In this document: piece by piece, positions 10,664-29,612 of the stretch | Numbering within the stretch: position 1 is the first letter of the stretch | How the letters are laid out: each line of letters begins with the position of its first letter | Source: Kaistia hirudinis | Lineage (GTDB): Bacteria; Pseudomonadota; Alphaproteobacteria; Rhizobiales; Kaistiaceae | DNA: 64,000 nt | Assembly (NCBI RefSeq): GCF_014196455.1 | Contig: NZ_JACIDS010000003.1 | Location: 186,001-250,000 of the forward strand | Direction of reading: 5' to 3' | Program-made: the position numbers and the translations under genes | The notes under the pieces: generated by a model | What the model saw: only the letters and a program-made list of their open reading frames with translations | Databases searched by the model: none | What the model was told of the DNA's origin: nothing

Positions 10664-11536
10664 ATGCGCTATTCGGTGGTGCTGGAGGAGGGCGAACGGC
10701 GCCTCGCGGTGGTGGATGGCGGCCGCTTCGCGATCCTCGGTCCCGACTTCGCCGATCTTCGTGCGGTCCTTGTGTCCCCCGGCGCCGAGGAGGCGATGCG
10801 TCGCCGCGTGAGCCTCGCCGAGGCGGACTGGCGGCCCCTTGAATCGGCGCGGTTCGCGCAGCCCTTCGCGCGGCCGGGCAAGATCGTCTGCCTCGGGCTC
10901 AATTATCGCGATCACGCCCTCGAAGGCGGCTATGCCGTGCCGGATTACCCGGCGCTGTTCCTGCGCACGGCGACGTCGCTGCTGGCCGCCGGCGCGCCGA
11001 TCGTGGCGCCCGCTGTGTCGGAGAAGCTCGACTTCGAGGCGGAGCTGCTGGTCATCGTCGGGCAGGGCGGCCGCCGCATCGCCGAAGCCGACGCGCTGCG
11101 CCATGTCTTCGGATATGCCTGCTTCAACGATGCTTCCATCCGCGACTTCCAGCGCAAGACGCATCAATGGACGCCCGGCAAGAATTTCGACGGCACCGGC
11201 GCGATCGGGCCAGTGGTGGTGACGGCGGATGAGCTTCCTGCGGGCGCCTCGGGTCTTGCCATACGCTGTCGGTTGAACGGCACCACCGTTCAGGACGCGA
11301 ATACCGCCGACATGCTGGTTTCCGTGCCGCGCGCGATCGCGATCATTTCCGAGTTCATGACGCTGGAGCCTGGCGACATGATCGCCATGGGCACGCCACA
11401 GGGCGTCGGCCATGCACGCAATCCGCCGCTCTGGATGCGGCCGGGCGACGACGTCGAGGTCGAGATCGAGCGGATCGGCATCCTGCGCAACCCGATCGTC
11501 GCCGAGGACTCGGCCGCCGTGCCGCGCGCATCCTGA
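10664..11536 (+). CDS. Fumarylacetoacetate hydrolase (FAH) family protein
   Basis: A 290-residue FAH-fold protein. The metal-binding acidic residues are in LDFEAELLVIVG (near residue 125) and YACFNDASIRDFQ (near 155), and the KNFDGTGAIGP and MGTPQGVGHARNPP segments are typical. Family reactions are C-C hydrolysis, decarboxylation or isomerisation of ring-cleavage products and acylpyruvates. First gene of an operon with an intradiol dioxygenase (18-base gap) and an amidohydrolase, so likely processing of the ring-opened product. Exact reaction unknown. Confidence 0.92.
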   Translation: MRYSVVLEEGERRLAVVDGGRFAILGPDFADLRAVLVSPGAEEAMRRRVSLAEADWRPLESARFAQPFARPGKIVCLGLNYRDHALEGGYAVPDYPALFLRTATSLLAAGAPIVAPAVSEKLDFEAELLVIVGQGGRRIAEADALRHVFGYACFNDASIRDFQRKTHQWTPGKNFDGTGAIGPVVVTADELPAGASGLAIRCRLNGTTVQDANTADMLVSVPRAIAIISEFMTLEPGDMIAMGTPQGVGHARNPPLWMRPGDDVEVEIERIGILRNPIVAEDSAAVPRAS

Positions 11537-11553
11537 GACCGTAGGGAGGAACC

Positions 11554-12423
11554 ATGCGCGACATCACCGCCGACACGATCACGCAGGCCGTCATGGCGTC
11601 CTGGGCGAATGCGCCCGACGCCCGTGCGCGCCAAGTCCTGCAACGCCTCACGCATCACCTGCACGCCTTCATCGACGACGTCCATCCCACCCATGCCGAG
11701 TGGCTCGCGGCGGTCGATTTTCTCTGGCGGTGCGGCCAGATCAGCGACAGCCAGCGCAACGAGTTCGCGCTGCTGTCGGATGTGTTCGGGGTGACTTCGC
11801 TGGTCGATCTGCGAAACGCCATCCCCGGCGCGACGGTCGGCTCCGTGCTCGGCCCCTTCTATTCGGACGACAGCCCCTATGTCCCGTTCGGCGCGGACCT
11901 CGTGAAGGACAATGCGGGCGACGTCGTGCTCGTCACCGGTGTGGTGCGCGACACGGCAGGGGGGCCGATCCCCGGCGCCGTCATCGACATGTGGCAGACC
12001 AATGCGACGGGCGCCTATGCGACGCAGGATCCCGACCAGGACGACGCCAATCTGCGCTGCAAGCAACTTTGCGACGCGGCAGGCCGCTATGCCTTCACGA
12101 CGGTCGAGCCGGCCGCCTATACGATCCCGATGGATGGACCGGTCGGAGCCGTCGTGCGGCTGGCGGAACGCACGCCGTGGCGCCCCGGCCATTTCCATTT
12201 CATCGTCAGGGCCGAAGGCTACCAGCCGATCGTGACGGAGATCTTCTTCGCGCACGATCCGCTGGTCGACAGCGACGCCGTCTTCGGCACCCGGCAATCG
12301 CTGGTCCGCGACATTGATCCGGTGCGTGATGACGAGGAGCTTCCGGCGCCCCTCGACCGTCGCCCCGATCGTCGCCTAGACTTCGATTTCACGCTGACGG
12401 CCGCCGGCGTCGACGCGCCATGA
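11554..12423 (+). CDS. Intradiol ring-cleavage dioxygenase (catechol/hydroxyquinol 1,2-dioxygenase family)
   Basis: A 289-residue non-heme Fe(III) dioxygenase with the N-terminal helical linker domain (about 1-100) and the catalytic beta-sandwich. The four iron ligands appear as Tyr in MWQTNATGAYATQD, Tyr in EPAAYTIPMDGP, and the two His in WRPGHFHFIVRAEGY. GGAGG precedes the ATG. Its stop overlaps the next gene's ATG by four bases (ATGA). The domain layout fits hydroxyquinol or catechol dioxygenases; the substrate cannot be fixed by eye. Produces muconate- or maleylacetate-type acids in the cytoplasm. Confidence 0.92.
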   Translation: MRDITADTITQAVMASWANAPDARARQVLQRLTHHLHAFIDDVHPTHAEWLAAVDFLWRCGQISDSQRNEFALLSDVFGVTSLVDLRNAIPGATVGSVLGPFYSDDSPYVPFGADLVKDNAGDVVLVTGVVRDTAGGPIPGAVIDMWQTNATGAYATQDPDQDDANLRCKQLCDAAGRYAFTTVEPAAYTIPMDGPVGAVVRLAERTPWRPGHFHFIVRAEGYQPIVTEIFFAHDPLVDSDAVFGTRQSLVRDIDPVRDDEELPAPLDRRPDRRLDFDFTLTAAGVDAP

Positions 12424-13793
12424 CCGCGACGCGGCGAATCCTGATCCGGAATGCGATCGTTCTCACAATGGACGACCGCATCGGCGCATTCCGCGATGCC
12501 GACGTCCTGATCGTCGGCGATCGGATCGCCGATGTCGGTCCGGGCCTCGTGGTCGACGACGCCGAGATCGTCGACGGCCGCGGCCGCATCGTCATTCCCG
12601 GCCTCGTCAACGTCCACATGCATACATGGCAGACGGGATTGCGCGGGCTGACGTCGAACATGACGCTGCTCGAATATTTTCGCTGGGTGCATCGCGGGCT
12701 CGCGACGGCGTTCACGCCGGAGGACATTCACATCGCGACACTCGCCGGAGCGCTCGGCCAGATCAATGCCGGCACGACCACGCTCGGCGACTGGTGTCAC
12801 AACAACCCGACGCCGGACCACACCGACGCCGCGGTTTCGGCCCTTTTCGAGAGCGGCATCCGTTCGGTGTTCCTGCATGGCTCGCCCAAGCCCGATCCCA
12901 AGCCTGGCCAGCCGCATTTTTCGGAAGTTCCGCATCCGCGCCACGAGATCGAGCGGCTCCTCGCGACCCGCTTCACAAGCCGCGGCCAACTCGTCACGCT
13001 CGGGCTCGCCATCCTCGGCCCGCACTATTCGACTCTCGACGTTGCGGACGCCGATTTCCGCCTGGCGCGGGAGTTCGGCTTGGTCGCCTCGATGCACCAG
13101 GGCGGCGGCGCCCCGAAGACGCCGGGCGGCTGGGAGATCCTCGAGGCGCGCGGCCTCGTGGGGCCTGGCCTCAACATCGTGCATGGCAATGATCTCTCCG
13201 ACGAGCAGATCGCGCGCTTCGTTGCGGCGGGGGTTTCGTTTACGGTCGCGCCCGAGAATGAGCTGACGCAGGGCCATGGCTGGCCGATCACCGGCCGCGT
13301 GATCGCGGCAGGCGGGCAGCCGACATTCGGCGTCGACATCGAATCCCTGGTGTCGGCCGACATGTTCACCGTCGGCCGGATGGCGATCGGCTGCCAGCGC
13401 GGATTGGACAATGCGGCGAGCCGTTTGGCGACCGGCTCGATACCGCAGTCCCCCAGCGTGACCACGCGCGACGCGCTGCGCTGGATCACGATCGAAGGCG
13501 CACGCATGCTCGGCCTCGACGACCGCATCGGCTCGTTGACCCCGCGCAAGCAGGCCGACATCACGATCCTCGATGCCACGGCCTGGAACATGTGGCCGGT
13601 GCATGATCCCTATTCGACGGTGATCATGCAGGCCGGGATCGGCAATGTGGAAAGCGTCCTCATCGGCGGCCGCTTCTTGAAACGGGATGGCAGGCTCCTC
13701 CGCGACGACGCCCCGTGCATTCGAGAGGATCTCGCGTCGTCTGGCCGGCGGATCGTCGAGGCGCTTGGCTTGCCGGACGCCTTCGCGACCTGA
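12420..13793 (+). CDS. Amidohydrolase family protein (AtzA/TrzN/cytosine-deaminase-like)
   Basis: A 457-residue metal-dependent hydrolase. It has an N-terminal composite beta domain, the H-x-H motif VNVHMHTWQTG near residue 64, His in SMHQGGG near 223, IVHGNDLSDEQI near 252 and Asp in GVDIESLVSADMF near 307; the C-terminal ADITILDATAWNM returns to the beta domain. The family hydrolyses or deaminates ring C-N or C-Cl bonds. Translationally coupled to the dioxygenase gene (ATGA overlap), so it probably deaminates or dehalogenates an intermediate of the same pathway. Confidence 0.9.
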   Translation: MTATRRILIRNAIVLTMDDRIGAFRDADVLIVGDRIADVGPGLVVDDAEIVDGRGRIVIPGLVNVHMHTWQTGLRGLTSNMTLLEYFRWVHRGLATAFTPEDIHIATLAGALGQINAGTTTLGDWCHNNPTPDHTDAAVSALFESGIRSVFLHGSPKPDPKPGQPHFSEVPHPRHEIERLLATRFTSRGQLVTLGLAILGPHYSTLDVADADFRLAREFGLVASMHQGGGAPKTPGGWEILEARGLVGPGLNIVHGNDLSDEQIARFVAAGVSFTVAPENELTQGHGWPITGRVIAAGGQPTFGVDIESLVSADMFTVGRMAIGCQRGLDNAASRLATGSIPQSPSVTTRDALRWITIEGARMLGLDDRIGSLTPRKQADITILDATAWNMWPVHDPYSTVIMQAGIGNVESVLIGGRFLKRDGRLLRDDAPCIREDLASSGRRIVEALGLPDAFAT

Positions 13794-13800
13794 TCGCACT

Positions 13801-13813
13801 GCCATTTTGAGAA
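13801..13813. promoter_or_regulatory. Possible degenerate operator before the semialdehyde dehydrogenase gene (site 7)
   Basis: GCCATTTTGAGAA: the right half TGAGAA matches the recurring CTCA-N3-TGAGAA pattern, while the left half has two mismatches. It lies in the 136-base gap before the aldehyde dehydrogenase start. Confidence 0.25.
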
Positions 13814-13929
13814 TGTTCGCGCCGCGCGCCCGCGCGGCGCTTTGCCATTGTCCCCGCATCGGGAGCGATCGCGGAGCCGGGCCGCCGGCCCCGCGCCACC
13901 CTCACCAGCCGACAAAGCGGGATCAGGAC

Positions 13930-15387
13930 ATGCTGCACGACATCAGCCATTTCATGCGCCAAGCCAACCTGATCGGTGGCGAATGGGTCGGCGCCGACCA
14001 CGGCGGCACCATCGACGTCACCAATCCGGCGACAGGCGCGGTGATCGGCACCGTGCCGCGATCGGGCATGGCCGAGACGCGGCGGGCGATCGAGGCAGCC
14101 CACGCCGCCTTCCCGGCCTGGCGCGCCACATCCGCCCTCGATCGCCATGCGCTGCTGCGCGCCCTGCACGACGCGATCATGGACAATCGGGAATCGCTGG
14201 CCGAACTGCTGACGATCGAGCAGGGCAAGTCGCTCGCCGAGGCACGCGGCGAGATCGGCATGTCCGCGAGCTATATCCTCTGGTTCGCGGAAGAGGGGCG
14301 GCGCGCCTATGGCGATATCGTTCCCTCGCCCTGGGCGTCGCGCCGTATCCTGGTGACGCGCGAGCCGGTCGGCGTCGTCGCGGCCATCACGCCGTGGAAT
14401 TTCCCCTCGTCCATGCTGGCGCGCAAGCTCGGTCCCGCGCTGGCCGCCGGCTGCACGACGGTGGTGAAGCCGGCCTCGCAGACGCCCTATTCCGGGCTCG
14501 CCTGGGGCGTGCTCTGCCAGGATGTCGGCCTGCCGCCGGGCGTCGTCAACATCGTGACGGGGTCGGCGGCGGAGATCGGCGACGAGATTTGCGCCAATCC
14601 GCTCGTCAGCAAGATCACCTTCACCGGCTCGACGGAAATCGGCCGGCTGCTCATCGCGAAGGCGGCGCCGAGCGTCAAGAAGGTGTCGATGGAGCTTGGT
14701 GGCAATGCGCCGTTCATCGTTTTTGACGATGCCGATCTCGACCGCGCAGTCGAAGGCGCGATCGCATCGAAGTTCCGCAATTCCGGACAGACCTGCGTCT
14801 GCACCAATCGCTTCCTCGTCCAGTCGGGCATCCACGATCGCTTCGTCGAGCGGCTTGCCGCGGCGGTCGCCGTCCTCCGCGTCGGATCGGGCCTCGAAGC
14901 TGGCACCCAGCAGGGTCCGTTGATCGACGAGGCGGCGGTCGTCAAGGTCGAGGCGCTGATCGCAGACGCCGTCGCCAAGGGCGCCGAGGTGGTCTCGGGC
15001 GGCCGGCGCCATGCGCTGGGCGGCTGCTTCTTCGAGCCGACGGTGATCAAAGGTGCTACGCCGGCTATGCGTTTCACCGATGAGGAGATCTTCGGGCCGT
15101 TGGCGCCCGTCTACCGGTTCGAGACGGAGGCCGAGGCGATCGCGCTTGCCAATGCGACCGAGTTCGGCCTGGCGAGCTATTTCTACACGAGTGACCTCGG
15201 TCGGGCCGTCCGCGTGATGGAGGGGCTGAAATGCGGCATCGTCGGAGTCAATGAAGGGCTCGTGACGACGGTCGAGGCGCCGTTCGGCGGGATGAAGCAA
15301 TCCGGCCTCGGCCGCGAAGGCGGTCGGCAGGGCATCGAGGACTACCTCGATACCAAATATGTCTGTATCGGCGGGATCGCCGGCTGA
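13930..15387 (+). CDS. gabD: NAD(P)-dependent succinate-semialdehyde dehydrogenase-like aldehyde dehydrogenase
   Basis: A 485-residue ALDH-superfamily enzyme. It shows ITPWNFPSSMLARKLGPALA near residue 154, the catalytic Glu in MELGGNAPFIVF near 256 and the catalytic Cys in NSGQTCVCTNRFLVQ near 290. The C-terminal GMKQSGLGREGGRQGIEDYLDTKYVCIG is the usual GabD end, so succinate semialdehyde is the best guess. The ATG at 13930 gives the family's length; the frame stays open upstream to 13687 without homologous residues. Confidence 0.92.
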   Translation: MLHDISHFMRQANLIGGEWVGADHGGTIDVTNPATGAVIGTVPRSGMAETRRAIEAAHAAFPAWRATSALDRHALLRALHDAIMDNRESLAELLTIEQGKSLAEARGEIGMSASYILWFAEEGRRAYGDIVPSPWASRRILVTREPVGVVAAITPWNFPSSMLARKLGPALAAGCTTVVKPASQTPYSGLAWGVLCQDVGLPPGVVNIVTGSAAEIGDEICANPLVSKITFTGSTEIGRLLIAKAAPSVKKVSMELGGNAPFIVFDDADLDRAVEGAIASKFRNSGQTCVCTNRFLVQSGIHDRFVERLAAAVAVLRVGSGLEAGTQQGPLIDEAAVVKVEALIADAVAKGAEVVSGGRRHALGGCFFEPTVIKGATPAMRFTDEEIFGPLAPVYRFETEAEAIALANATEFGLASYFYTSDLGRAVRVMEGLKCGIVGVNEGLVTTVEAPFGGMKQSGLGREGGRQGIEDYLDTKYVCIGGIAG

Positions 15388-15402: not shown

Positions 15403-15450
15403 CCGCGACGCCGACGTCTGCCGGCACCGCCATGGGATTGCGCGTCGCGG
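15403..15450. repeat. Inverted repeat in convergent intergenic region
   Basis: CCGCGACGC (15403-15411) and its exact complement GCGTCGCGG (15442-15450) flank a 30-base loop between the convergent aldehyde dehydrogenase gene and the HTH-SBP gene. No T tract. Possibly a bidirectional transcription attenuator. Confidence 0.4.
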
Positions 15451-15452: not shown

Positions 15453-17195
15453 TCAGTAGCGGCCGGCTGCACGCATCACCTTGTCGATCCGGTTCTGGCT
15501 GCGCTCCAGCGCTTCCCGGTCAGTGAGCTCTCCATTGAGCGCGGCGAATATCTCCTCGCCCAATATGTGCTCGACCAGCGCGTATTCCGGGATCGGTGGC
15601 CGATGCCAGCCATGCAGCCGGTTCTGCTTGGCGAGGCGATCGACGAAGCGGACGATCGGCGTGGTGGCCGCCGCCTCCGGGTCGGCCGTGACGCTGAAGC
15701 GCGGCGCGACCGGGATGCCGTTCTTCACGTGCTCCTTCATCGCTGCCGGCGAGGCCATCCACGAGATCGCCTCGAAGGCGAGTTTCGAGCGTTCCGGCGA
15801 AAGGCCTGCCGGTATGGCGAGCAGGAAGCCGCCGATCGGCCCGATCGAGGGACCGCCCGGGCCGTGCGGATGGGGCAGATACTCGACCTTGCGCTTCACG
15901 ACCGACTTGATGTCGTACTCGAAGCGCGACGCGCGCATGGTCCAGCAATAGATCATGGCGGAGCGGCCGAGCATGAAGCAGTCGAGGGCCCGGTTCCAGT
16001 CCATGACGAGGATGTCGGGCGGCGAAACCGTCAGCAGGCGGCGCATATAGTCGAGCGTCTGCAGGCCCTGCTCGCTCATCACCAGTGGCCGGTACATCTC
16101 GCCCGACATCTTGCTGTAGTCGAACGAGACGCGGAACATCGGGACGTTCAGCACCGGCGCGCCGCAACTGCCCATGAAGAACATGAAGGAATGGGCGATC
16201 GGCATGCCCTTGGCGGCGTTCCAGACGATGCCCTGCATGCCGCGGCGAGGGTTGTGCAGCTGCCGCGCGGCGTCGATCACCTTGTCGAAGGACGTCGGCG
16301 CGTGAAGATCGTGCGCCTGGAAGAGGTCCTTGCGGATCGCGAGCGTTTCGATCGTGCTGTAGATCGGCACGCCATACTGGCTGCAGCCCCAATGGCCGGT
16401 CGACCAGATATTGGGATGGAAGTCGAGCGGGTTGATCCCGCTGTCGGCCAGATAGCCGTCGAGCGGCTGGACGATGCCGCGTTCGACCATCTCGCCGAGC
16501 CAGGGGATGTTGACGCAGAGAACGTCGTATTCGCTCTCCTTGCGCTTGGCATTGCGGATCAGCTCCTCGTGCAGGTCCGGCAGCGAGAGGAGGTGGAAGT
16601 TCTTGCGCGAGGCCAGCTTGCTGCGGAAGTCGGACCACATGTTCCGCATGGATTCGAAATAATTGTCCTCATTGAGCAGGAACCGGAGATCCTGCGAGGG
16701 TGAAAGCCGCGTTTCCATGATCTTGAGCGGCGGGATGACCTGATCGGCCATATAGGCGCCGCCGAAATAATAGTCGTCGGCATTGGCGCTGCCCGAGCCT
16801 AGGCCGAAGGTCTCCGCGAGCAGGACCTTGACCTTCATCGCATAGGCAACGAAGTCGGACTTCAGCCGCCGGCTCGGCGCGAGATAGAACGCCTTGGCGC
16901 CGGCGCTGCGCTGGTACTGCTCGATGTCGCCATCGTCGATCAGACGATGGATCCGGCGCATGGCGCTGGCGAAGGGGATCTGCGAGATCGAGGCGAGCGA
17001 CGACATCGTGACGGGATCGCCGCGCAGGTGGCACTTCATCAGATAGAGAACGATGTTCCAGATCGGGTCCGGGTCGGCGCTCCCGAGGCGCTCGTCATAG
17101 GGTGTCCGAATGCGCTCCAGGAAATTGATGATCCGGAGCAACTCGTAGTCGGTCATGCGGTCCGTGGCATGATCCGCCGCTCGAAGGTCCAGCAC
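15453..17195 (-). CDS. Winged-helix protein fused to an ABC solute-binding-protein (SBP_bac_1-like) domain
   Basis: A 580-residue protein. Residues about 40-120 read as a MarR-like winged helix (WNIVLYLMKCHLRGDPVTMS, then SLASISQIPFASAMRRIHRL and a DIEQYQ wing). The rest, about 150-570, reads as a type 1 extracellular solute-binding protein (PLDGYLADSGINPLDFHP, STIETLAIRKDLFQ, IGGFLLAIPAG, FEAISWMASPAAMKEHV). There is no signal peptide, lipobox or membrane segment, so the binding domain should be cytoplasmic. The GTG at 17195 follows GGGAGGAAG. The likely role is a ligand-responsive transcription factor, comparable in logic to SgrR but with a different SBP family. The ligand is unknown; it lies between the semialdehyde dehydrogenase and the 2-oxo-acid dehydrogenase operon. 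Confidence 0.85.
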   Translation of the reverse strand: MLDLRAADHATDRMTDYELLRIINFLERIRTPYDERLGSADPDPIWNIVLYLMKCHLRGDPVTMSSLASISQIPFASAMRRIHRLIDDGDIEQYQRSAGAKAFYLAPSRRLKSDFVAYAMKVKVLLAETFGLGSGSANADDYYFGGAYMADQVIPPLKIMETRLSPSQDLRFLLNEDNYFESMRNMWSDFRSKLASRKNFHLLSLPDLHEELIRNAKRKESEYDVLCVNIPWLGEMVERGIVQPLDGYLADSGINPLDFHPNIWSTGHWGCSQYGVPIYSTIETLAIRKDLFQAHDLHAPTSFDKVIDAARQLHNPRRGMQGIVWNAAKGMPIAHSFMFFMGSCGAPVLNVPMFRVSFDYSKMSGEMYRPLVMSEQGLQTLDYMRRLLTVSPPDILVMDWNRALDCFMLGRSAMIYCWTMRASRFEYDIKSVVKRKVEYLPHPHGPGGPSIGPIGGFLLAIPAGLSPERSKLAFEAISWMASPAAMKEHVKNGIPVAPRFSVTADPEAAATTPIVRFVDRLAKQNRLHGWHRPPIPEYALVEHILGEEIFAALNGELTDREALERSQNRIDKVMRAAGRY

Positions 17196-17264
17196 GTTGT
17201 CTTCCTCCCAGGACTTGGCGGTCTGGGCCGGCGAGTGCCGCCGGTCATCCGATCGAACAGAGTC

Positions 17265-17378: not shown

Positions 17379-17848
17379 GGCTTCCTCCCTCTGGCCCTCT
17401 GAAACGGAGCCATTGAACGCGGTACCGATCGGGTTTCGAGCGCACGAAGATAGGCGGAGGCGCCGGAATCACTCCGTCGCTGTCAACAAGCCTGAAAATG
17501 ATGGGATGGCGCCGGGCGAACCGGACCACATTTCACGCGCACTTGCCACCCTGCTGCTCCTCCAACAGCACGACGACATCCACCGGCGCAACAGCCGGCG
17601 GGAGCGCGATGTTCCTCCCCATCGCGTGGCAAAACTAGCATCGCGGGCAAGGTGTCAGAATCCAGGAAATTATCAATATGAGAATGCCGTGAGGCACACA
17701 GGAAGGCCGATGGCCTCCCACTGCATCCGTTCCGGCCGTGCGCGAAGGCGGTTGCGTCCGGGCGAAGTTGATCATTCTGAGAAAATTGGCATGTGTGCGG
17801 CCAAAGCCCATTTGGCATGGTTCCGTCCTGAGGGATGGACACGCACAA
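17379..17848. promoter_or_regulatory. Divergent regulatory region with two motif sites
   Basis: About 470 bases without a convincing gene between the minus-strand small ORF and the E1-alpha gene. It is less GC-rich than its surroundings and carries two copies of the recurring motif: ATCAATATGAG at 17672-17682 and ATCATTCTGAG at 17771-17781, both followed by AA. These are the obvious candidates for control of the dehydrogenase operon and perhaps of the HTH-SBP gene. Confidence 0.45.
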
Positions 17849-18877
17849 ATGACCAGCAAGAAAGATAGAGACGGTGAGACCGCTCTAAAGAACGATGATA
17901 TCAGCCCCGATATCCGGCAGGAACTCTTCCGTCTTCAGGTAGAAATCCGTGATTGCGAGAAGAGAGCGAACGATCTGTTTTTTCAGAACATGATCAAGGG
18001 CACCAGCCATCTTTCGCTGGGCCAGGAGGCGATTGCGGCGGGCATGGCGATGGCTATGCAGCCGGGGGACAAATCCTTCTGCACCTATCGCGGTCATGCC
18101 CACACCCTGGCGCGCGGCGTGCCGATGGAGAAGGTTCTCGGCGAGCTGATGCTACGCGACAACGGTCTGATGCGCGGCAAGGGTGGCTCGATGCATCTGA
18201 CCTCCGTCGAGCACGGCGTGATGGGGTCCTATGCCATCATCGGCGCGCATCTGCCGATCGCCTGCGGTGCAGCCTGGCGGGCTCAGTACCTCGGCCAGGA
18301 TGATGTGTCGGTCTGCTTCTTCGGCGACGGCACCACCAATATCGGCGCGTTCCACGAGGCGCTGAATTTCGCCGCGATCTGGAAGCTGCCGGTCGTCTTC
18401 GTCTGCGAGAACAACCTCTACATGGAGTACACGCTGACGTCGGAGATCACCGCCGTCGAGCATCCCGCCGCTGACCGGGCCTCGGCCTATGGCCTGGAGC
18501 GGATCGTCATCGACGGCAACGACGCGGACGTCGTCTATCGAACGGCCCAGGCGGCCTTCGCCAAGGCGCGCAGCGGCGGCGGTCCGAGCATGATCGAATG
18601 CATGACCTACCGTCATTCCGGCCATTCGCGCGCCGACCCGGCGAAATACAGGCCGCCGGGCGAGCTCGAGCGCTGGCTGGAGAAGGATCCGATCAAGATC
18701 TATCGCACGCGGCTTGCCGAGTTCGGCGTGCCGGAGGCCCGGATCAGGGCGATCGAGGAGGAGAGCAAGCGCAAGGTCGATGAGGCAACCGAGGTCTGCA
18801 AGGCCTCCCCGCCCGCGCCGGCCGAACTGCTGACGACCGACGTATACGCCGATGGAGGATGGGCATGGCGGAACTGA
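17849..18877 (+). CDS. 2-oxo-acid/acetoin dehydrogenase E1 component, alpha subunit
   Basis: A 342-residue thiamine-diphosphate enzyme subunit. It has CTYRGHAHTLARGVP near residue 75, GKGGSMHLTSVEHGVMGS near 111 and the TPP motif GDGTTNIGAFHEALNFAAIW ending in CENN near 190, and TYRHSGHSRADPAKYR contains the phosphorylation-loop region. Start at 17849 gives the normal family length. The ribosome site is weak (GAGGGA, 12 bases away). Forms an alpha2beta2 E1 with the next gene, which overlaps it by 13 bases. Pyruvate or acetoin are the usual substrates; which one is not decided. Confidence 0.93.
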   Translation: MTSKKDRDGETALKNDDISPDIRQELFRLQVEIRDCEKRANDLFFQNMIKGTSHLSLGQEAIAAGMAMAMQPGDKSFCTYRGHAHTLARGVPMEKVLGELMLRDNGLMRGKGGSMHLTSVEHGVMGSYAIIGAHLPIACGAAWRAQYLGQDDVSVCFFGDGTTNIGAFHEALNFAAIWKLPVVFVCENNLYMEYTLTSEITAVEHPAADRASAYGLERIVIDGNDADVVYRTAQAAFAKARSGGGPSMIECMTYRHSGHSRADPAKYRPPGELERWLEKDPIKIYRTRLAEFGVPEARIRAIEEESKRKVDEATEVCKASPPAPAELLTTDVYADGGWAWRN

Positions 18878-19854
18878 CCTATCGCGACGCCGTTGCCCGA
18901 GGGATCGCGCAGGAGATGGAGCGCGACAGCAATGTCGTGTTCCTGGGCGAGGACGTCGCCCGCGCGGGCGGCGTGTTCAAGGCAACCGTCGGCCTCGTGG
19001 ATCGTTTCGGTCCGCTGCGCGTCCGCGACACGCCGATCTCGGAACAGGCCATCCTCGGCGCGGCCATGGGCGCCGCGATGACGGGGCTCCGGCCGATCGC
19101 CGAGATCATGTTCGCTGATTTCGCAGCGGTCTGCTTCGACTACATCGCCAATGAGTTCCCGAAGCTGCGCTACATGACGAACGGCCAGCTCGGCTGTCCC
19201 CTCGTGGTGCGGACCGGCAACGGCGGCGGGGCGCGCTTCGGTGCGCAGCATTCGCAGTCGATCGAGAACTGGACGATGATGATCCCCGGTCTCAAGGTCG
19301 TGGCGCCGTCGTCGCCCGTCGACGTGGTCGGCCTCATGGCCGCCGCCGTGCGCGACGACAACCCGGTGATCTTCCACGAGCACAAGTCGCTCTACGCGAC
19401 CAAGAGCGAGGTCCCGGACGGGGAGATCGTCGACACGCTGGGAACGGCGAAGATCCTCCGACCTGGACGGGACGCCACGATCCTAGCGCTAGCTCTGATG
19501 GTTCCACGCGCGCTTGCAGCGGCGGAGACGCTGGCCAGCGAGCACGGAATCGATTGCGAAGTGATCGACGTACGCTCGCTCGTGCCGCTCGACACCCAGA
19601 CAATCCTGAATTCGGTGGCGCGGACAGGCCGCCTGTTCACCGTCGAGGAGAATCCGCGGCTGTGCGGCTGGGGCGCCGAGATCGCCTCGATCGTGGCCGA
19701 CGAGGCTTTCTGGGATCTCGACGGGCCGATCGTGCGCATCACCACGCCGCACATTCCGCTCCCGGCCGCCGATCATCTCGAAGATCTGGCCCTGCCGAGC
19801 GCGCCGCGCATCGTCGAGCGGATCGCCCGGGTCATGAACGGGGCGCGGCGATGA
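18865..19854 (+). CDS. 2-oxo-acid/acetoin dehydrogenase E1 component, beta subunit
   Basis: A 329-residue transketolase-like subunit (AELTYRDAVARGIAQEMERD, FLGEDVARAGGVFKAT, DTPISEQAILGAAMGAAMTG, GARFGAQHSQSIENW). The second ATG at 18865 is chosen because TGGAGG lies six bases upstream; the ATG at 18859 is too close. Overlaps the alpha gene by 13 bases and the E2 gene by four (ATGA), indicating tight translational coupling and stoichiometric assembly. Confidence 0.94.
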   Translation: MAELTYRDAVARGIAQEMERDSNVVFLGEDVARAGGVFKATVGLVDRFGPLRVRDTPISEQAILGAAMGAAMTGLRPIAEIMFADFAAVCFDYIANEFPKLRYMTNGQLGCPLVVRTGNGGGARFGAQHSQSIENWTMMIPGLKVVAPSSPVDVVGLMAAAVRDDNPVIFHEHKSLYATKSEVPDGEIVDTLGTAKILRPGRDATILALALMVPRALAAAETLASEHGIDCEVIDVRSLVPLDTQTILNSVARTGRLFTVEENPRLCGWGAEIASIVADEAFWDLDGPIVRITTPHIPLPAADHLEDLALPSAPRIVERIARVMNGARR

Positions 19855-21143
19855 GCACTGACGTCCTGATGCCGCAACTCGGCGAGACGGTCGCCGAGGG
19901 CAAGATTCTGAGCTGGTTCAAGAACGAGGGCGACGAAGTCCGCGAGGGTGACAGCCTGTTCGAGGTCGAGACCGACAAGGTCACGATGGAGGTCCAGGCC
20001 ATCGCGGCGGGCCGACTCGGCGACGTCCGCGTCAAGGCCGGCGATGTCGCCAAGGTGGGCGCCGTGGTCGCAGTGATCGGCGGGGCCGCGAAGGTTGCCC
20101 CATCCGCGCCCGCTGTGCGCGCGGACAAGGCCTTGCCGAATGGCGCTGCGCCGCGGTCGCCCTTCGAGGAGGTCGCGACGCCGACCGAATCCTATGGCCG
20201 AGCCGAGGCACCGCTCGGCCTCCGGGCCACGCCGCTTGCGCGTCGCCTGATCGCGCAGAACGGCCTCGATGCCGAGGCGATCGCGCGGGTCGTCGCGGCA
20301 CGTGGCGGGGCGCGCATCTCGGAACGTGACGTGCGCGATGCGCTTGCCGCCCCGCGGCGCGCCGACAATCCTCCGCCCGCGGCGCCGGTCTCCGCGCCGC
20401 AGCGGCCCCCCGCGCCTCCCGCACCGACGCTCGTCGGCGAGATCTTCACGCTGAACACCATCCGCCGCCGCACCGGCGAGCGCCTCGCCCAGAACTGGCA
20501 GAGCATTCCGCATGTCTTCCAGGCGATCGACGTGGATTTCACGGCCGTCGAGGCGGTGAGGGCCGTGCGTAAGGCCGCGTTCAAGGCGGAGAGCGGCTTC
20601 GCGCTGACTTATCTGCCGTTCATTGCGCGGGCGAGCTGCATCGCGCTCAAGGAGTTTCCGCAGATCAACGCCCAGTTCGGCGGCGAGCACCTTGTATTGT
20701 CGGCCGAGGTCAATCTCGGCATCGCGGTCGATCTCGCACATAACGGGCTCGTGGTGCCCGTCGTGCGGGGCGCGGGGGATCTGACGCTGCCGGGTCTCGC
20801 GAGGGCGATCGGCCGCCAGATCGAAAAGGCGAGGGCCGGGAAGCTGACCGGCGAGGATTTCACCGGGGGCACCTATTCGATCACAAACAATGGTGCGTTC
20901 GGAACGAGCTTCACCGCGCCGATCATCAATGCGCCGCAGGTGGCGATCCTGTCGGCCGATGCGATCCGCCTGCGTCCGGCCGTCGTGGAGACGAAGGAAG
21001 GCCCGTTCATCGCGCCGCGCCTGATCGGCATGGTGGGACAGAGCTTCGATCACCGCGCCTTCGACGGCGGCTATTCGGCCGCTTTCCTTTCCCGCTTCAA
21101 GGCGATCATCGAGCAGCGTGACTGGGCTGCTGAATTCGCCTGA
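19851..21143 (+). CDS. Dihydrolipoamide acyltransferase (E2) of 2-oxo-acid dehydrogenase
   Basis: A 430-residue E2. The N-terminal lipoyl domain (about 1-80) has the lipoylated Lys in VETDKVTMEV; an Ala/Pro-rich linker follows. The peripheral-subunit-binding domain is near 122-160 (ATPLARRLIAQNGLDAEAIA), a second Pro-rich linker comes next, and the catalytic domain carries the active-site SFDHRAFDGGYSAAFLS near the C-terminus. Accepts the acyl group from E1 and passes it to CoA. Starts on the ATGA overlap with the E1-beta gene. Confidence 0.94.
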   Translation: MSTDVLMPQLGETVAEGKILSWFKNEGDEVREGDSLFEVETDKVTMEVQAIAAGRLGDVRVKAGDVAKVGAVVAVIGGAAKVAPSAPAVRADKALPNGAAPRSPFEEVATPTESYGRAEAPLGLRATPLARRLIAQNGLDAEAIARVVAARGGARISERDVRDALAAPRRADNPPPAAPVSAPQRPPAPPAPTLVGEIFTLNTIRRRTGERLAQNWQSIPHVFQAIDVDFTAVEAVRAVRKAAFKAESGFALTYLPFIARASCIALKEFPQINAQFGGEHLVLSAEVNLGIAVDLAHNGLVVPVVRGAGDLTLPGLARAIGRQIEKARAGKLTGEDFTGGTYSITNNGAFGTSFTAPIINAPQVAILSADAIRLRPAVVETKEGPFIAPRLIGMVGQSFDHRAFDGGYSAAFLSRFKAIIEQRDWAAEFA

Positions 21144-21197: not shown

Positions 21198-22451
21198 ATG
21201 AAGTACAATAGTCCCCATTCCACGGCCGCCTGGGGCCAGATGGCAAAAGACTGGGAACAGGGCGTCGATTACAGTCGTCTGTCGAAAGAGCGGCTCGCGC
21301 GGGCGCAGCAGGCGATCCGCCATGCCGGTCTCGGCGCCGTGCTGTGCTTCAACTTCGACAATATCCGCTATGTCACGGCGACGCATATCGGCGAGTGGGC
21401 GCGCGACAAGTTCATGCGCTATGCGCTTTGTCCGGTCGAAGGCTCGCCGTTCCTGTGGGATCCGGCACCGCCGGCAAAGCGCATTTCGTCGCCCTGGATC
21501 GCCGATAACGTCGCGGCGCCGATCACCACGATGCAGGGCGCCATTCCGCCGCATATGAACGTGCAGCGGGACTTCGCACGCCAGATCAAGAAGGCGCTGG
21601 TGCACTACGGCATCGAAAAAGAGCCGCTCGGCATCGACCTGATGGAGCTCGGCATGCTGCGCGCGCTCGAGGCCGAGGGCATCGAGGTGGTCGACGGTCA
21701 GCAGGCTCTGCTCGATGCGCGCGAGATCAAGACGCTGGACGAGATCGAGCTGCTCAAGATGGCGGCGGCGATGGTCGATGCCACCTATGTCGACATTGCG
21801 CGGGCGATCCGCCCGGGCACCAAGGAGAACGAGCTGGTCGCCATCGCCAATGACCGGCTGTTTCGCATGGGATCGGAGCGCGTCGAGTGCGTGAACTCGG
21901 TCTCGGGCCAGCGCGGCCGGCCCCATTCGCACACGTTTTCCGACCGGATGATCCAGCCGGGCGACATGATCTTCCTGGACATTATGCATTCCTACAATGG
22001 CTACCGGACCTGCTATTATCGGACCTTCATCTGCGGCGAACCGAACAAGCACCAGATCGACGCCTATGAGACGGCGTCGAAATGGATCAGCGCCTCGATC
22101 GACATGATCCGACCGGGCATTACGCCCGATGAAGTGGCCGCGGTCTGGCCCGATGCGCAGGAGTTCGGCTATCGCGACGAGGCCGAGGCGTTCCTGCTCC
22201 AGTACGGGCATGGCGTCGGCCTGTCGCTCTGGGAGCGCCCGATCTTCTCCAAGCGCTTCCGCGGCCAGAATACGCCGCTGCGCGAGGGCATGGTCTTCGC
22301 GCTCGAAACCTGGAAGGGCGCCGAGGACGGCACCGGCGCGGCGCGCATCGAGGAAGAGGTGGTCGTCACCAAGGACGGCTGCGAGATCATCACCAACTTC
22401 CCATCGGATCGCCTGATCTCCTGCGGCCTTCCCGGCTGCGAGGTCTTCTGA
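21198..22451 (+). CDS. M24 family metallopeptidase/creatinase-like protein
   Basis: A 417-residue pita-bread-fold protein: an N-terminal creatinase-type domain (about 30-190) and a C-terminal M24 domain. Expected metal ligands are Asp, Asp, His, Glu, Glu. I see Asp in FLDIMHSYNGYRT, His in QYGHGVGLSLWERP, Glu in FALETWKG and Glu in RIEEEVVVT. The second Asp position, normally followed by M-T-R-T-F, is Cys (RTCYYRTF), so it may be a non-peptidase hydrolase like creatinase or ectoine hydrolase. Lies between E2 and a CobW GTPase in the same operon. Confidence 0.88.
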   Translation: MKYNSPHSTAAWGQMAKDWEQGVDYSRLSKERLARAQQAIRHAGLGAVLCFNFDNIRYVTATHIGEWARDKFMRYALCPVEGSPFLWDPAPPAKRISSPWIADNVAAPITTMQGAIPPHMNVQRDFARQIKKALVHYGIEKEPLGIDLMELGMLRALEAEGIEVVDGQQALLDAREIKTLDEIELLKMAAAMVDATYVDIARAIRPGTKENELVAIANDRLFRMGSERVECVNSVSGQRGRPHSHTFSDRMIQPGDMIFLDIMHSYNGYRTCYYRTFICGEPNKHQIDAYETASKWISASIDMIRPGITPDEVAAVWPDAQEFGYRDEAEAFLLQYGHGVGLSLWERPIFSKRFRGQNTPLREGMVFALETWKGAEDGTGAARIEEEVVVTKDGCEIITNFPSDRLISCGLPGCEVF

Positions 22452-22499
22452 CGCCGGCCGGCGCATCCCGTGATGCGCCAGAACCAGACGGAGCGCCCC

Positions 22500-23726
22500 A
22501 TGGCGACAGCAGCGAGGCGGCCCGCCCGGCGCCGCGACGCCGGACGGATTCCGGTGACGTTCGTCACCGGATTCCTGGGCAGCGGCAAGACGACGTTGAT
22601 CAACGCGGCGCTGCGCGCCCCGGAGATGGCGCGAACGGTCGTGGTGGTGAACGAGTTCGGCGAGGTAGGCCTCGACCACCAGCTCGTGACGTCGAGCAGC
22701 GATCAGGTGCTGGTGCTCGAGAATGGCTGTCTGTGCTGCACGGTCCGCAGCGATCTCGTGGGAACCCTCAACGGGCTCTATCATGATCGGGCGGCTGGCC
22801 GGATACCCGACTTCGGCCATGTCGTGATCGAGAGCTCCGGGCTCGCGGAGCCGGGGCCGGTCCTGCAGGCCTTCCTGTCGGAGCCGACGCTCGACGGCCT
22901 CTACCGCGTCGCCTCGGTGGTGACGCTGGTCGACGCCGTCAATTGGCGTTCGACGGTCGAGAAGCATGATGAGGCGGTGCGCCAGGTGGCTTTCGCCGAC
23001 CATGTGCTCATCACCAAGCTCGACCTCTCGACGGAGCCCGATGCCGAGGCGGCGATTCGGCGCGACATCGCAAAGCTCAATCCGGCGACAGAGGTGGCCG
23101 TCGCTGACCCGATGCCGACGCCGAAACGAGTCGCGGAACTGCTGACGGCCAAAGGGTTCGATGCCGGTGACACGGCGGCAGACCCGCGGCCATGGCTGAA
23201 ACTCCCTGCCTATCAGCGTCTCGCGGCGGAGAGCCGCGAACACGGTGAGCATCATGATCATGATCACCACCACCACCACCACCACCACCACCACCACGAT
23301 CATGATCATGACGAGGATCACGATCATCCCCCGCATTTCCATCTGGAGCGGCGCGGCATCGAGAGCTTCGTGCTGATGCGCGAGAAGCCGCTGTCGCGGG
23401 ACGAACTCCAGTTCCTCCTCGACGGCATCAGCCAGAATCTCGGGCCGGGTCTGCTGCGGGTGAAGGGGCTGGTCAATATCGCCGAGGAGCCGGGCCAGCC
23501 GGCCGTCATCCAGGGCGCTCAGCATCTCCTGCACACCATGGTCTGGCTCGATCGCTGGCCCGACGAGGATCGCCGCACGAAGATCGTGTTCATCACGCAG
23601 GGCGTCACTGGCGACGAGCTCAAGGAGATGATCGAGCTGCTGGAGCGTGTCGGCTCCCGTACCTTCGCCGCACGGGAACGGGCCCGCCGCAACAAGCCGA
23701 TCGATCCGCAGGCACAGACCACCTAG
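22500..23726 (+). CDS. CobW/COG0523 family GTPase with a His-rich linker (metal chaperone)
   Basis: A 408-residue G3E GTPase. The P-loop [18 protein letters not shown] is near residue 25, the metal-binding [13 protein letters not shown] near 80 and the guanine-specificity ITKLD near 173. A long His/Asp tract (bases about 23245-23335) is followed by the CobW_C domain. These proteins deliver Zn, Co or Fe to client enzymes, and the His tract is a metal store. GGAG six bases upstream supports the ATG at 22500. Placed between a metallohydrolase-like gene and lpdA, so the M24 protein is a plausible client. Confidence 0.93.
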
Positions 23727-23744
23727 CGTCCGTCCGGAGCGTCC

Positions 23745-25199
23745 ATGTACGATATCGTCATCATCGGCAGCGGGCCGGGCGGCTATGTCGCGGCCATCCG
23801 CGCCGCGCAGCTCGGCCTCCGCACGGCCGTCGTCGAGCGGGAGCATCTTGCCGGCATCTGCTCCAACTGGGGCTGCATCCCGACCAAGGCCCTGCTGCGC
23901 TCAGCCGAGCTGATGGATTTCATCGGCCATGCCGAGACCTTCGGCGTCGCGCTGCCCGGACCGGCGGCGCCCGATCTCGCGGCCATGGTCGCGCGTTCGC
24001 GGCGGATCGCCGAGCGGATGAACAGCGGCGTTGGCTTTCTCCTGCGCAAGAACAAGGTCGATGTCATCTGGGGCGAGGGTAGTCTGGTGCGTGCGCCGAC
24101 CGCCGATCGGCCGGGCGAGATCGCCGTCGTTGCGTCCGCACGCCCCGCGCGGCAGCCGCAGGCGCCGCTGCCCCAGGGTGCACTTGGTCCCGGCCGCTAC
24201 CAGGCGAAGCACATCATCGTCGCGACGGGCGCCCGGCCGCGCAGCCTGCCGGGTATCGAGGTCGATGGTGATCGCGTCTGGAGCTATTTCGAGGCGATGG
24301 TTCCGCCGAGCCTGCCCAAGTCACTGCTCGTCATCGGCTCGGGCGCGATCGGAATCGAGTTCGCAAGTTTCTATCGCTCCCTGGGGACGGAGGTGACCGT
24401 CGTCGAGGTTCTGCCCCGGATCCTGCCGGTCGAGGACGCGGACGTCGCCGCATTCGCGCAAAAACAATTCGAGAAGCGCGGCATCCGCTTTCGTCTCGGC
24501 GCGAAGGTCGTGCGCATCGAACGCGGACCCGAGGGTGTCACCGCGGATGTCGAACGCGGCGATGGCACGATGGAGCGCATCACGGCCGAGCGGGTGATCT
24601 CGGCGGTCGGCGTCACCGGCAATGTCGAAGGGCTGGGGCTCGAGGCGCTTGGCGTCGCGGTCGAGCGCGGCACGATCACGGTGGATGGCTTCGGCCGCAC
24701 GAATGTCGCCGGGATCTATGCGATCGGCGACGTCGCCGGCGCGCCGATGCTCGCTCACAAGGCGGAGCACGAGGGTGTGCTCTGCGTCGAAGCCATCGCC
24801 GGTAAGGCGGCTATCGAGCCGCTGGACCGCACGCAGATCCCCGGCTGCACCTATGGCGCACCGCAGGTCGCATCGGTCGGTCTCACCGAGGCCAGGGCGC
24901 GCGAGGCCGGACATGCGGTGCGCGTCGGCCGCTTTCCGTTTGCCGGCAACGGCAAGGCGATTGCGCTCGGGGAGGACCAGGGTTTCGTCAAGACGGTGTT
25001 CGACGCCGGCACGGGCAAGCTGCTCGGGGCGCATCTGGTCGGTGCGGAAGTCACAGAGCTGATTAACGGCTTCGTCGTCGCCATGAACCTCGAGACGACG
25101 GAACAGGAACTGATGCACACGATCTTCCCGCATCCGACACTGTCGGAAATGATGAAGGAGAGCGTGCTCGACGCCTATGGCGAGGCAATCAACATCTGA
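23745..25199 (+). CDS. lpdA: Dihydrolipoyl dehydrogenase (E3)
   Basis: A 484-residue class I disulfide oxidoreductase. It has the N-terminal FAD motif IIGSGPGGYVAAIRAAQLG, redox cysteines in GICSNWGCIPTKALL near residue 45, an NAD motif IGSGAIGIEFASFY near 200, the second FAD segment GIYAIGDVAGAPMLAHKAEHEG and the C-terminal active-site His-Glu pair (TIFPHPTLSE). A short Ala/Pro/Gln-rich insertion near 130-145 is not typical. Reoxidises E2 dihydrolipoyl groups with NAD. Nineteen bases after the CobW gene, so the dehydrogenase set E1-E2-E3 is complete in one run. Confidence 0.95.
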   Translation: MYDIVIIGSGPGGYVAAIRAAQLGLRTAVVEREHLAGICSNWGCIPTKALLRSAELMDFIGHAETFGVALPGPAAPDLAAMVARSRRIAERMNSGVGFLLRKNKVDVIWGEGSLVRAPTADRPGEIAVVASARPARQPQAPLPQGALGPGRYQAKHIIVATGARPRSLPGIEVDGDRVWSYFEAMVPPSLPKSLLVIGSGAIGIEFASFYRSLGTEVTVVEVLPRILPVEDADVAAFAQKQFEKRGIRFRLGAKVVRIERGPEGVTADVERGDGTMERITAERVISAVGVTGNVEGLGLEALGVAVERGTITVDGFGRTNVAGIYAIGDVAGAPMLAHKAEHEGVLCVEAIAGKAAIEPLDRTQIPGCTYGAPQVASVGLTEARAREAGHAVRVGRFPFAGNGKAIALGEDQGFVKTVFDAGTGKLLGAHLVGAEVTELINGFVVAMNLETTEQELMHTIFPHPTLSEMMKESVLDAYGEAINI

Positions 25200-25229
25200 C
25201 GGCGGCCGCCTGTCGATGAAGGAGAGACC

Positions 25230-26108
25230 ATGAGAATCGGATGGATCGGGCTGGGCAAGATGGGCCTTCCGATGTCGAAGCGGATCGCGGAGGCAGGGAA
25301 CAGTGTGACCGTCCTTGCCAGGCACAGCGCTGGTGCCGCGCGCGCCGAGGCGGCCGGATACGCGCATGTCGGGGACATGGCGGCGTTGGCGGCGGCGAGC
25401 GACGTGATCATCTCCGCCATTCCAGACGACCCAGCGCTGCTTCAGACGGTGCTGGGGGAAGCCGGGCTCGCCCGCCACGTTCGGGCGGGGCAGGTCTATA
25501 TCGACACCAGCACCGTCTCCCCCGAGGCCTCCGCGCGTGTCGCCGAGCAGATGGCGGCGGGCGGCGTCTCCTATCTGCGCGCGCCGGTATCAGGTTCCAC
25601 GGCAACGGCGGCAGCGGGCGCGCTCACCGTCATGGTGTCGGGACCGCGGGATACGTACGATCGGCTGCTGCCCTTGTTCGAGGCCTTCACGCGGACGCGG
25701 TTCTATCTCGGGGCCGACGAGCAGGCCCGCTTCATGAAGCTGGCGCTCAACGCCATGGTCGGCGCCACGTCGGCGCTGCTCGCCGAGGCGCTCACCCTGT
25801 CGCGGCGAGGCGGTATCAGCCTTGCCGACGCCCTCGATGTGTTTGGCAAGAGCGCGGTGACGTCGCCGCTGATCGAGTACAAGCGCGCCATGATCCTTGA
25901 GGGCCGCTACGATCCCGCCTTCGAGCTGTCGCAGATGATGAAGGATTTCGACATCGCACTCGATGTCGGCCGGGCGCACCATGCGCCGCTGCCCCTGACC
26001 GCGCAGATCCGCCAGCAATTCGAAGCCGCCTATCTCCGCGGCCATGGCGAGCGCGACTTCTTCGTCCTGGTGAGGGAACTCGCCGAGCTGGCCGGCCTCG
26101 AGGACTGA
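25230..26108 (+). CDS. 3-hydroxyisobutyrate dehydrogenase-family NAD(P)-dependent oxidoreductase
   Basis: A 292-residue beta-hydroxyacid dehydrogenase: the Rossmann motif WIGLGKMGLPMSKRIAEAG at the N-terminus, the substrate-binding YLRAPVSGSTATAAAG near 115 and the catalytic Lys in ARFMKLALNAMVGA near 168. Acts on small 3-hydroxy or 2-hydroxy-3-oxo acids (hydroxyisobutyrate, tartronate semialdehyde and similar). Last gene of the dehydrogenase operon, ending 30 bases before a clear terminator. Confidence 0.92.
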   Translation: MRIGWIGLGKMGLPMSKRIAEAGNSVTVLARHSAGAARAEAAGYAHVGDMAALAAASDVIISAIPDDPALLQTVLGEAGLARHVRAGQVYIDTSTVSPEASARVAEQMAAGGVSYLRAPVSGSTATAAAGALTVMVSGPRDTYDRLLPLFEAFTRTRFYLGADEQARFMKLALNAMVGATSALLAEALTLSRRGGISLADALDVFGKSAVTSPLIEYKRAMILEGRYDPAFELSQMMKDFDIALDVGRAHHAPLPLTAQIRQQFEAAYLRGHGERDFFVLVRELAELAGLED

Positions 26109-26998: not shown

Positions 26999-27035
26999 GG
27001 AGGGTTCCTTCTCGATGGCTTGTCTGCGAGGCCGC

Positions 27036-28046: not shown

Positions 28047-28048
28047 GT

Positions 28049-29603: not shown

Positions 29604-29612
29604 GCGCCGGGC

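Follow-up and report, generated by a model that had tools for sequence, protein, structure and literature searches.

A predicted family of cytoplasmic regulators joining a winged helix to a complete sugar-type solute-binding domain

What does a solute-binding protein (SBP) do when it carries a DNA-binding fold at its N-terminus? This question is raised by the gene at 15453-17195 of the window, that is, the whole stretch of 64,000 nucleotides of Kaistia hirudinis DNA that was analysed. With a high degree of confidence, we read its product as a cytoplasmic one-component regulator, made of an operator-binding winged helix-turn-helix (wHTH) and an SBP domain that senses a sugar or polyol, a reading that has strong comparative support and for which no binding data are available. 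The one-component feature, a DNA-binding fold fused to a ligand-binding fold in a cytoplasmic protein, rests on prediction only. The architecture, the family, the gene context and the operator conservation on which this reading is built were established by computation.

The open reading frame list of the window assigns to the locus a 580-codon frame on the minus strand. Its GTG start appears credible from the sequence, being preceded at a distance of 7 nucleotides by TCCTCCC on the forward strand, which reads as the Shine-Dalgarno motif GGGAGGA on the coding strand. An alternative ATG start gives a product of 567 amino acids, corresponding to the portion that aligns with relatives, and the residue numbers used below refer to this form (Table 1). 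An AlphaFold2 (AF2) model computed with 50 family sequences (alignment A4) has a mean pLDDT of 85.3 and places a winged helix at residues 1-117, approximately, a disordered segment at 118-138 and an SBP fold from about residue 155 to the end. The SBP part matches Pfam SBP_bac_1 (PF01547) with an E value of 1.9e-22 and 81.1 bits, against a curated cut-off of 26, and SBP_bac_8 with an E value of 3.6e-15. The top match in a sequence search of the PDB is 5iai (E 1.1e-31), and the same chain is retrieved by Foldseek (E 1.2e-29, target TM-score 0.91) together with the trehalose/maltose-binding protein 1eu8, MalE3 and 4rya. The family 1 SBP domain of about 420 residues that the sequence-only reading had proposed is thus present, with a length of 413 residues.

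The N-terminal domain is less easily named. Modelled alone, residues 1-118 fold as a winged helix with a pLDDT of 90.6, comprising helices 31-45, 51-57 and 62-74, strands 78-82 and 90-94 and a final helix 96-117. Its best Foldseek matches are AspA (4rs8 and 5k5q) and MarR-family chains, with E values from 5e-4 to 7e-3 among the 50 matches listed. The domain of the window protein passes no Pfam cut-off, MarR being the case in point (E 0.14, 12.5 bits versus 24.6), and no Pfam family matches it at E<=0.01. MarR_2 does match 17 of 47 family N-termini at E<=0.01, though only weakly, and a profile of these N-termini retrieves TubR (E 0.0033) and SlyA/MarR chains from the PDB at E<=1. According to the models, then, the domain is a winged helix that is only loosely MarR-like: of the MarR-like helix-turn-helix first suggested, the winged helix stands and the MarR attribution does not go beyond a distant likeness. 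Structure prediction, proposed as a check for the two parts, has returned the expected folds, a winged helix for residues 1-118 modelled alone and an SBP for residues 155-567 in the full-length model. At E<=1 the whole protein matches in Pfam only SBP_bac_1, SBP_bac_8 and, by chance, BTK (E 0.13). An NCBIfam search found no family for the window protein, and a sigma-70 scan found no promoter.

A chance fusion would be expected to stand alone, and this is not the case. When the N-terminal 177 residues were used as query, 21 of 385 class-level genomes matched, and these matches include, besides the window's own protein, eight full-length relatives in seven genomes. Full-length members, judged from the extent of the match or the length of the open frame, also occur in 9 of 28 genomes at the family level, 14 of 121 at the order level and 6 of 398 at the phylum level, one receiver-type match (G028) having been discounted. 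A scan of 84,980 species genomes produced 445 pattern stretches, and tblastn found 396 of them to encode a relative. The best 80 of these 396 were kept for analysis; the 316 loci left out may include plain SBPs, because one of the two scan patterns sits in the SBP part. All kept relatives except L114, interrupted by a contig end, span both domains, with alignments that begin somewhere in the first five residues and run to the end (79/80). Judging from record titles, 76 of the 80 are alphaproteobacterial, the other four being Grimontia hollisae, Paraburkholderia aspalathi, a Salinisphaera MAG and a MAG titled Bacteroidetes. Among plasmid records, 274 match at E<=1e-5, of which 35 over at least 80% of the query, and 11 of the 15 plasmid matches listed are annotated 'extracellular solute-binding protein'. 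SBP_bac_1 and SBP_bac_8 match every member of alignment A4 (50/50) over a full-length SBP domain, and the 40 invariant columns are distributed over the SBP part (34), the linker (2) and the wHTH (4). Since co-linear two-domain relatives are present in many genomes, more than a chance fusion is involved and, on the strength of these alignments, the wHTH-SBP protein belongs to a conserved two-domain family. In public records, such two-domain proteins carry the name of extracellular binding proteins.

Two side observations concern the N-terminal part of the family. The remaining 14 class-level loci (L017-L029 and L031) encode response-regulator-like proteins, in frames of 279-386 amino acids, with the same wHTH placed behind a receiver domain; the receiver, read from the translations, is clear in 12 and degenerate in L019 and L020. 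With a receiver ahead of, or an SBP behind, a common wHTH, it looks, as far as translations can tell, as if input modules had been exchanged around a single DNA-binding domain. In addition, a short PEGP(Y/F)(E/D) motif of unknown function precedes the wHTH in one clade (L110, L112, L115, L118-L122, L125, L131, L136, L138, L139, L145 and L146, and also L033 and L035-L040).

Cellular location was approached through the most hydrophobic 11-residue segment within the first 60 amino acids, with 2.0 as threshold. The window protein scores 1.42. The 89 RbsB-type proteins from neighbouring genes have a median of 2.09, and 59 of them reach the threshold, so that the test misses 30. No relative out of 78 reaches 2.0 when read from the aligned core, and only one (L147) does so when read from the most upstream start codon; these 78 are the 80 kept relatives without L076 and L127, which have a stop inside the matched stretch. 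Moreover, in L070, L072, L077, L084, L086, L093 and L106 an in-frame stop lies a few codons ahead of the wHTH. By hydrophobicity and by reading, without the use of a signal-peptide predictor, no export signal or lipobox was seen in the regulator family, and the regulator is predicted from its sequence to be cytoplasmic. The original statement that signal peptide and lipobox are missing is therefore borne out, and homologues that are secreted transporter components, which would have refuted it, were not met among the regulator homologues.

A secreted protein of the same subfamily does exist, as a separate gene. In the genome G397 the regulator is followed by a 448-residue SBP (L052:10830-12176), to which a signal peptide was assigned by reading, and then by permease genes of the malF/malG type. 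Against the regulator profile this SBP reaches 416 bits, the next SBP among the matches listed 180, and in a search of 385 genomes its best matches are the regulators, ahead of other SBPs. In a tree it groups with the sensor domains of the regulators, with a support of 98/99 for the joint set. Only membership of the same subfamily is claimed, because its place in the tree is open, with two SBP rows on a branch of length 8. These relationships, drawn from sequence comparison, fit a transporter SBP that was captured as a sensor, the direction of the change not being shown. The idea of a captured binding protein working inside the cell gains from this neighbour, as well as from the retention of both domains without a visible signal peptide.

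Gene neighbourhoods give an indication of what the regulator may govern. Genes called by script were clustered for the surroundings of 97 anchors, among which L061 and L054 are duplicate loci, and the counts that follow refer to the 79 genome-scan loci with a called anchor (L076 has none) and to a distance of 7 genes. Within these limits rbsA is found in 72 loci, rbsC in 74, rbsB in 73 and the complete trio in 70, together with SDR (43), GMC (37), Gfo/Idh (36), M24 (29), E1-alpha (21), ALDH (20) and E1-beta (18) enzymes. The counts are not independent, because the loci are related to one another. In one large clade a [ThuA HIBDH rbsA rbsC rbsC SDR rbsB] unit diverges from a [regulator SDR M24 E1a E1b E2 ALDH E2] unit, an order found also in the public annotation of Phaeobacter inhibens. 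In Shinella the regulator directly adjoins, and diverges from, an rbsB-rbsA-rbsC-SDR-TIM-YciI-dioxygenase set close in content to that of the window, where the similar set lies further away, at 26195-32520. The nearest relatives of the window protein, L182 and L183, also adjoin M24 and CobW genes, and the M24 proteins encoded there share 93% identity with their best match in the clustered loci. Since the genome of the window contains as many as 82 PF13407 matches, proximity to RbsABC genes is weak evidence here taken alone; G117, G154 and G337 contain only 9, 10 and 5, and with so few RbsB-type proteins the association goes beyond background there. The context at most loci of the family is the uptake and catabolism of small molecules.

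A separate observation concerns the substrate of one locus. At L059:17175-18338 a Gfo/Idh protein encoded near a relative matches the NCBIfam levoglucosan dehydrogenase with 712 bits, against a cut-off of 650, and some family members may consequently control levoglucosan use. This reading is limited to L059 and excludes the window.

These neighbourhoods bear directly on the possibility that the protein is a transporter component, namely an SBP with an odd N-terminal domain that is exported by some other route and serves a nearby ABC transporter. The annotation of most of the plasmid records listed and the full-length SBP match in all 50 aligned members would agree with such a role. The family lacks a signal peptide, its N-terminus is a DNA-binding fold and conserved palindromes lie at the gene; furthermore, an RbsB-type SBP of its own is already encoded in 73 of 79 loci, where the permeases are of another transporter class. 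As RbsABC systems use a type I binding protein, the sensor is no copy of the binding protein of the adjacent transporter. On account of the absent signal peptide and the separate RbsB-type SBP, we reject a function in transport, which retains hardly any credibility.

In the window, the regulator gene lies between operons with a catabolic content (Table 1).

Table 1. Coordinates of the regulator gene, its domains, its candidate operators and the surrounding genes in the window
Feature	Position	Strand	Remarks
wHTH-SBP one-component regulator (predicted)	15453..17195	-	580 codons from GTG; 567 aa from ATG at 17156
Shine-Dalgarno GGGAGGA	17203..17209	-	7 nt ahead of GTG; seen in sequence
Winged-helix DNA-binding domain, residues 1-117 of 567-aa form (predicted)	16806..17156	-	AF2, Foldseek, family alignment
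Linker, residues 118-154	16695..16805	-	118-138 with pLDDT <50; no hydrophobic signal segment
SBP_bac_1-type sensor domain (maltose/trehalose/polyol-binding fold), residues 155-567 (predicted)	15456..16694	-	Pfam, PDB matches, AF2, Foldseek
Terminator-like hairpin 3' of regulator gene	15405..15430	-	weak: 2 in region vs 1.7 expected in shuffles
Candidate operator 1, TTATCAATATGAGAA (TTATCA-ATA-TGAGAA)	17670..17684		before E1-alpha start
Candidate operator 2, TGATCATTCTGAGAA (TGATCA-TTC-TGAGAA)	17769..17783		before E1-alpha start
Candidate operator 3, AATTTTCA-GGA-TGGACATT	32649..32667		before TIM-SDR-rbsBAC-SDR operon
Candidate operator 4, TGACCA-GAA-TGAGAA	32695..32709	-	one mismatch; same promoter region as operator 3
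E1-alpha, E1-beta and E2 of 2-oxoacid dehydrogenase	17849..21143	+	likely target operon; like genes beside relatives
M24 creatinase/DddP-like, CobW GTPase, dihydrolipoyl dehydrogenase (by reading), 3-hydroxyisobutyrate-dehydrogenase-like	21198..26108	+	operon continuation
TIM-barrel isomerase, SDR, RbsB-type SBP, RbsA-type ATPase, RbsC-type permease, SDR	26195..32520	-	likely target operon
FAH-like (by reading), intradiol dioxygenase, amidohydrolase, aldehyde dehydrogenase	10664..15387	+	catabolic, converging on regulator

Some features of the surroundings deserve mention in their own right. A role of the M24 neighbour in DMSP metabolism was considered and is not claimed, its match to the DMSP lyase DddP being far under the cut-off (116 bits versus 600). 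Not far from the regulator, intradiol dioxygenase and YciI-type genes stand beside sugar-type transporters at 9130-12423 of the window and in L202, L203, L206 and L208. The window, L202, L203 and L206 have Gfo/Idh in addition, and the last three also have maleylacetate reductase. Such a set could possibly convert a sugar or cyclitol to a hydroxyquinol-like intermediate. The sequence AATATCGATA is common to 7337-7355 and 10593-10611, flanking a gene at 8203-8943 that reads as GntR-like, and is perhaps the operator of that regulator. The gene at 46937-48271 resembles, on reading, that of a tyrosine recombinase; close to it the GC content becomes lower and uneven (0.52-0.67) and stays so as far as the end, and 46937-64000 is probably an integrated element.

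If the protein binds DNA, a shared operator may be expected ahead of its genes. Expectation-maximisation on the upstream regions produced palindromic motifs in clades A and C, and in clade B a best motif located mostly 219-336 bp upstream. Among the 256 possible palindromes of the 4-3-4 form, TCCA-N3-TGGA ranks first upstream of the regulator, occurring in 27 of 80 loci, with 6 for the runner-up. A symmetric matrix, aATATCCA-N3-TGGATATt, was then derived from 59 intergenic seeds, 29 of which lie upstream of a regulator gene, so that the matrix was partly built from sites later scored with it. At a score of at least 8 bits, the AATATCCA-N3-TGGATATT palindrome is found ahead of the regulator in 70 of 78 loci (two of the 80 have less than 60 bp upstream), against a mean of 1.0 and a maximum of 3 loci in shuffled controls. 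These loci too are related, and the counts are not independent. The upstream regions of other genes in the family loci reach the same score in 146 of 1007 cases, the top 60 being mainly those of rbsB, rbsC, SDR, M24, Gfo/Idh and second regulator copies. When sites of 4 bits or more are paired, two spacings recur, 21 bp with 19 pairs and 49 bp with 14. As 21 bp correspond to two helical turns, the former spacing suggests, by inference, dimers lying side by side on one face of the DNA.

Of the 29 loci that were not used for the matrix, the window included, 10 have a site of 8 bits or more in the first 400 bp, versus 0.7 expected. Their sites include TATATTCA-N3-TGAATATA in three low-GC genomes of 1.4 Mb, where shuffles reach 8 bits in 10-12.5%. 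In the other 19, no such site lies in these 400 bp. They are the window subclade (six), L068, the malF/malG-type L052, L053 and L056-L060 (seven) and, lastly, L202, L203, L205, L206 and L207; where these last five are annotated, which holds for four of them, the regulator is the second gene. At the divergently oriented head of the operon, the rhizobial L202, L203 and L206 have sites of 14.3, 14.4 and 19.5 bits and the unannotated L207 one of 31.0 bits; Loktanella L205 has 3.9 bits only.

Within the window, the top match of the matrix, built from other genomes, is candidate operator 3, with 11.3 bits, a score reached somewhere in 23.7% of shuffled windows. As a side remark, the second-best site (7324-7342, 11.1 bits) lies between malonyl-CoA decarboxylase and SDR genes. 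The matrix misses both sites at 17670-17783. These two, both lying between the regulator and E1-alpha, follow the pattern TKATCA-N3-TGAGAA, which has no other exact match in 5.26 Mb; the reversed control pattern has no exact match at all. The former pattern remains descriptive, because it was read from the window's own two sites. Of the 13 places with one mismatch in this genome, two are ahead of RbsABC operons within 30 kb of the regulator, namely candidate operator 4 and a place some 10.6 kb ahead of the window, at 175397 of the contig. An observation from the same side of the contig is a second rbsB-rbsA-rbsC-rbsC-SDR-ADH-SDR-Gfo/Idh-like run, identified by reading just before the window (L149:7397-17596), with TTCTCAGAATGACAA upstream of it; it is likely a further target of the regulator.

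The relative in G524 offers an independent check, with TTATCAGAATGAGAA ahead of its own regulator. In this genome of 4.8 Mb the sole two exact places of TTMTCA-N3-TGAKAA fall on the 38.7-kb contig of the regulator, one of them directly before it, and the genome of the window has one further exact place (C2:67339). The other subclade genomes (G388, G491, G453 and G493) show no exact drifted site. Their recognition helices read PVATALRR, PYATAMRR, PYSTALRR and PYATALRR, respectively, and those of the window and G524 read PFASAMRR and PFASALRR. In this sample of six, recognition helix and operator would seem to change together, and the window sites are candidates for a drifted version of the family palindrome, in the absence of binding data. 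The region 17379-17848, put forward earlier for DNA-binding assays, does hold the first two candidate operators, and the suggestion that the gene sits between operons it could control is strengthened by the palindromes that these operons carry.

Could the palindromes belong to another regulator, with the wHTH-SBP protein acting elsewhere? The link between family and motif is statistical only, and the strict form of the motif fails to separate genomes with the regulator from those without: it lies beside the regulator in 2 of 8 carriers, and 4 of 8 genomes chosen for lacking the gene contain 1-2 copies. Nevertheless, the sites stand directly ahead of the gene in 70 of 78 loci; the commonest other regulator among the 45 commonest clusters, of the LacI type (c34), is present in only 4 of 97 loci; and the window and G524, which have a changed recognition helix, share a changed operator. 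We regard an unrelated owner of the palindromes as very unlikely.

Assigning the sites to the wHTH-SBP protein leads to a proposed mechanism, in which dimerisation, DNA binding and ligand class are inferred. The N-terminal winged helix would bind, as a dimer, palindromes of the family type, drifted in this genome to TTATCA-N3-TGAGAA. The C-terminal 413 residues, a complete sugar-type SBP that would have lost its signal peptide, would close on an imported, unphosphorylated sugar or polyol, and closure would change the spacing or the orientation of the two wings and thereby operator occupancy. The operators affected would be those between the regulator gene and the divergent 2-oxoacid dehydrogenase/M24 operon, as well as those ahead of RbsABC-type transporter operons. 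The weakest step is the sign of regulation, where we lean only slightly towards an autoregulated repressor released by its ligand rather than an activator. Ligand binding itself rests on inference only, which leaves room for a regulator whose SBP domain no longer binds small molecules and has become a module for dimerisation or protein docking. Such a loss appears unlikely: both SBP families are matched by all 50 aligned members, 34 of the 40 invariant columns lie in this part and most loci have a context of small-molecule uptake and catabolism.

The proposed sensor-regulator can finally be set beside known systems. It shares a one-component design, an HTH joined to a full SBP, with SgrR and its Vibrio homologue DsvR, which are described as having an HTH at the N-terminus, a solute-binding domain at the C-terminus, a site at their own promoter and a sugar-related role (PMC13060122, PMC7786190). 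The sensor of SgrR and DsvR is, however, SBP_bac_5 and that of the window protein SBP_bac_1/8, and the catabolic operons with RbsABC transporters around the latter family are unlike the context of SgrR. No SBP_bac_5 or SgrR N-domain Pfam match was found at E<=1, so that SgrR is, as had been supposed, a precedent with another SBP family. A further hallmark of SgrR is the activation of an sRNA in glucose-phosphate stress. LacI sensors are type I binding proteins, whereas the window protein joins a winged helix to a domain of the SBP_bac_1 type, which is larger. LacI/GalR regulators are described as uniting a DNA-binding domain with a sensor for sugars that has its relatives among periplasmic binding proteins (PMC6079105). 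No LacI or Peripla_BP match was obtained at E<=1. LysR-type regulators resemble the window protein in combining a winged helix with a binding-protein-like effector domain, which in their case has about 200 residues; no LysR HTH or substrate-domain match was found in Pfam. The MarR family and AspA have the nearest folds to the N-terminal domain, and neither MarR-family proteins nor the centromere-binding protein AspA are known to carry an SBP domain. The sugar- and polyol-binding SBP_bac_1 proteins 5iai, 1eu8, 6dtq and 4rya correspond in fold and sequence to residues 155-567; they are transporter binding proteins of 375-468 residues, with no room for a wHTH. Membership of the SgrR, MarR, LacI and LysR groups was rejected, the defining Pfam matches being absent or below cut-off. 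Among the papers listed on HTH-SBP regulators, from a literature without most subscription papers, no description of the wHTH-SBP_bac_1 family was recognised. It is probable that we are dealing with an apparently undescribed and widespread class, with a captured maltose-type sensor, RbsABC catabolic regulons and a 6-3-6 operator that has diverged together with the recognition helix. In that reading the class numbers hundreds of loci in Proteobacteria, and its carriers range from rhizobia and roseobacters to streamlined genomes of 1.4 Mb.

If this is true, many entries named 'extracellular solute-binding protein' would be transcription factors, which would alter how regulons and transport are reconstructed for rhizobia and roseobacters as well as for small genomes of the marine type. 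The conserved operator would make the regulons and substrates of uncharacterised sugar and polyol clusters directly testable. Periplasmic binding proteins have been fused to DNA-binding domains by engineering (PMC6079105), and the wHTH-SBP family would be the natural counterpart of these constructs. Evolution, in other words, appears to have already turned a full-size SBP into a cytoplasmic switch, and the secreted relative at one locus offers a way into the study of the capture step. Without an experiment at hand, such regulators very probably control genes for sugar uptake and breakdown in many bacteria of soil and sea.
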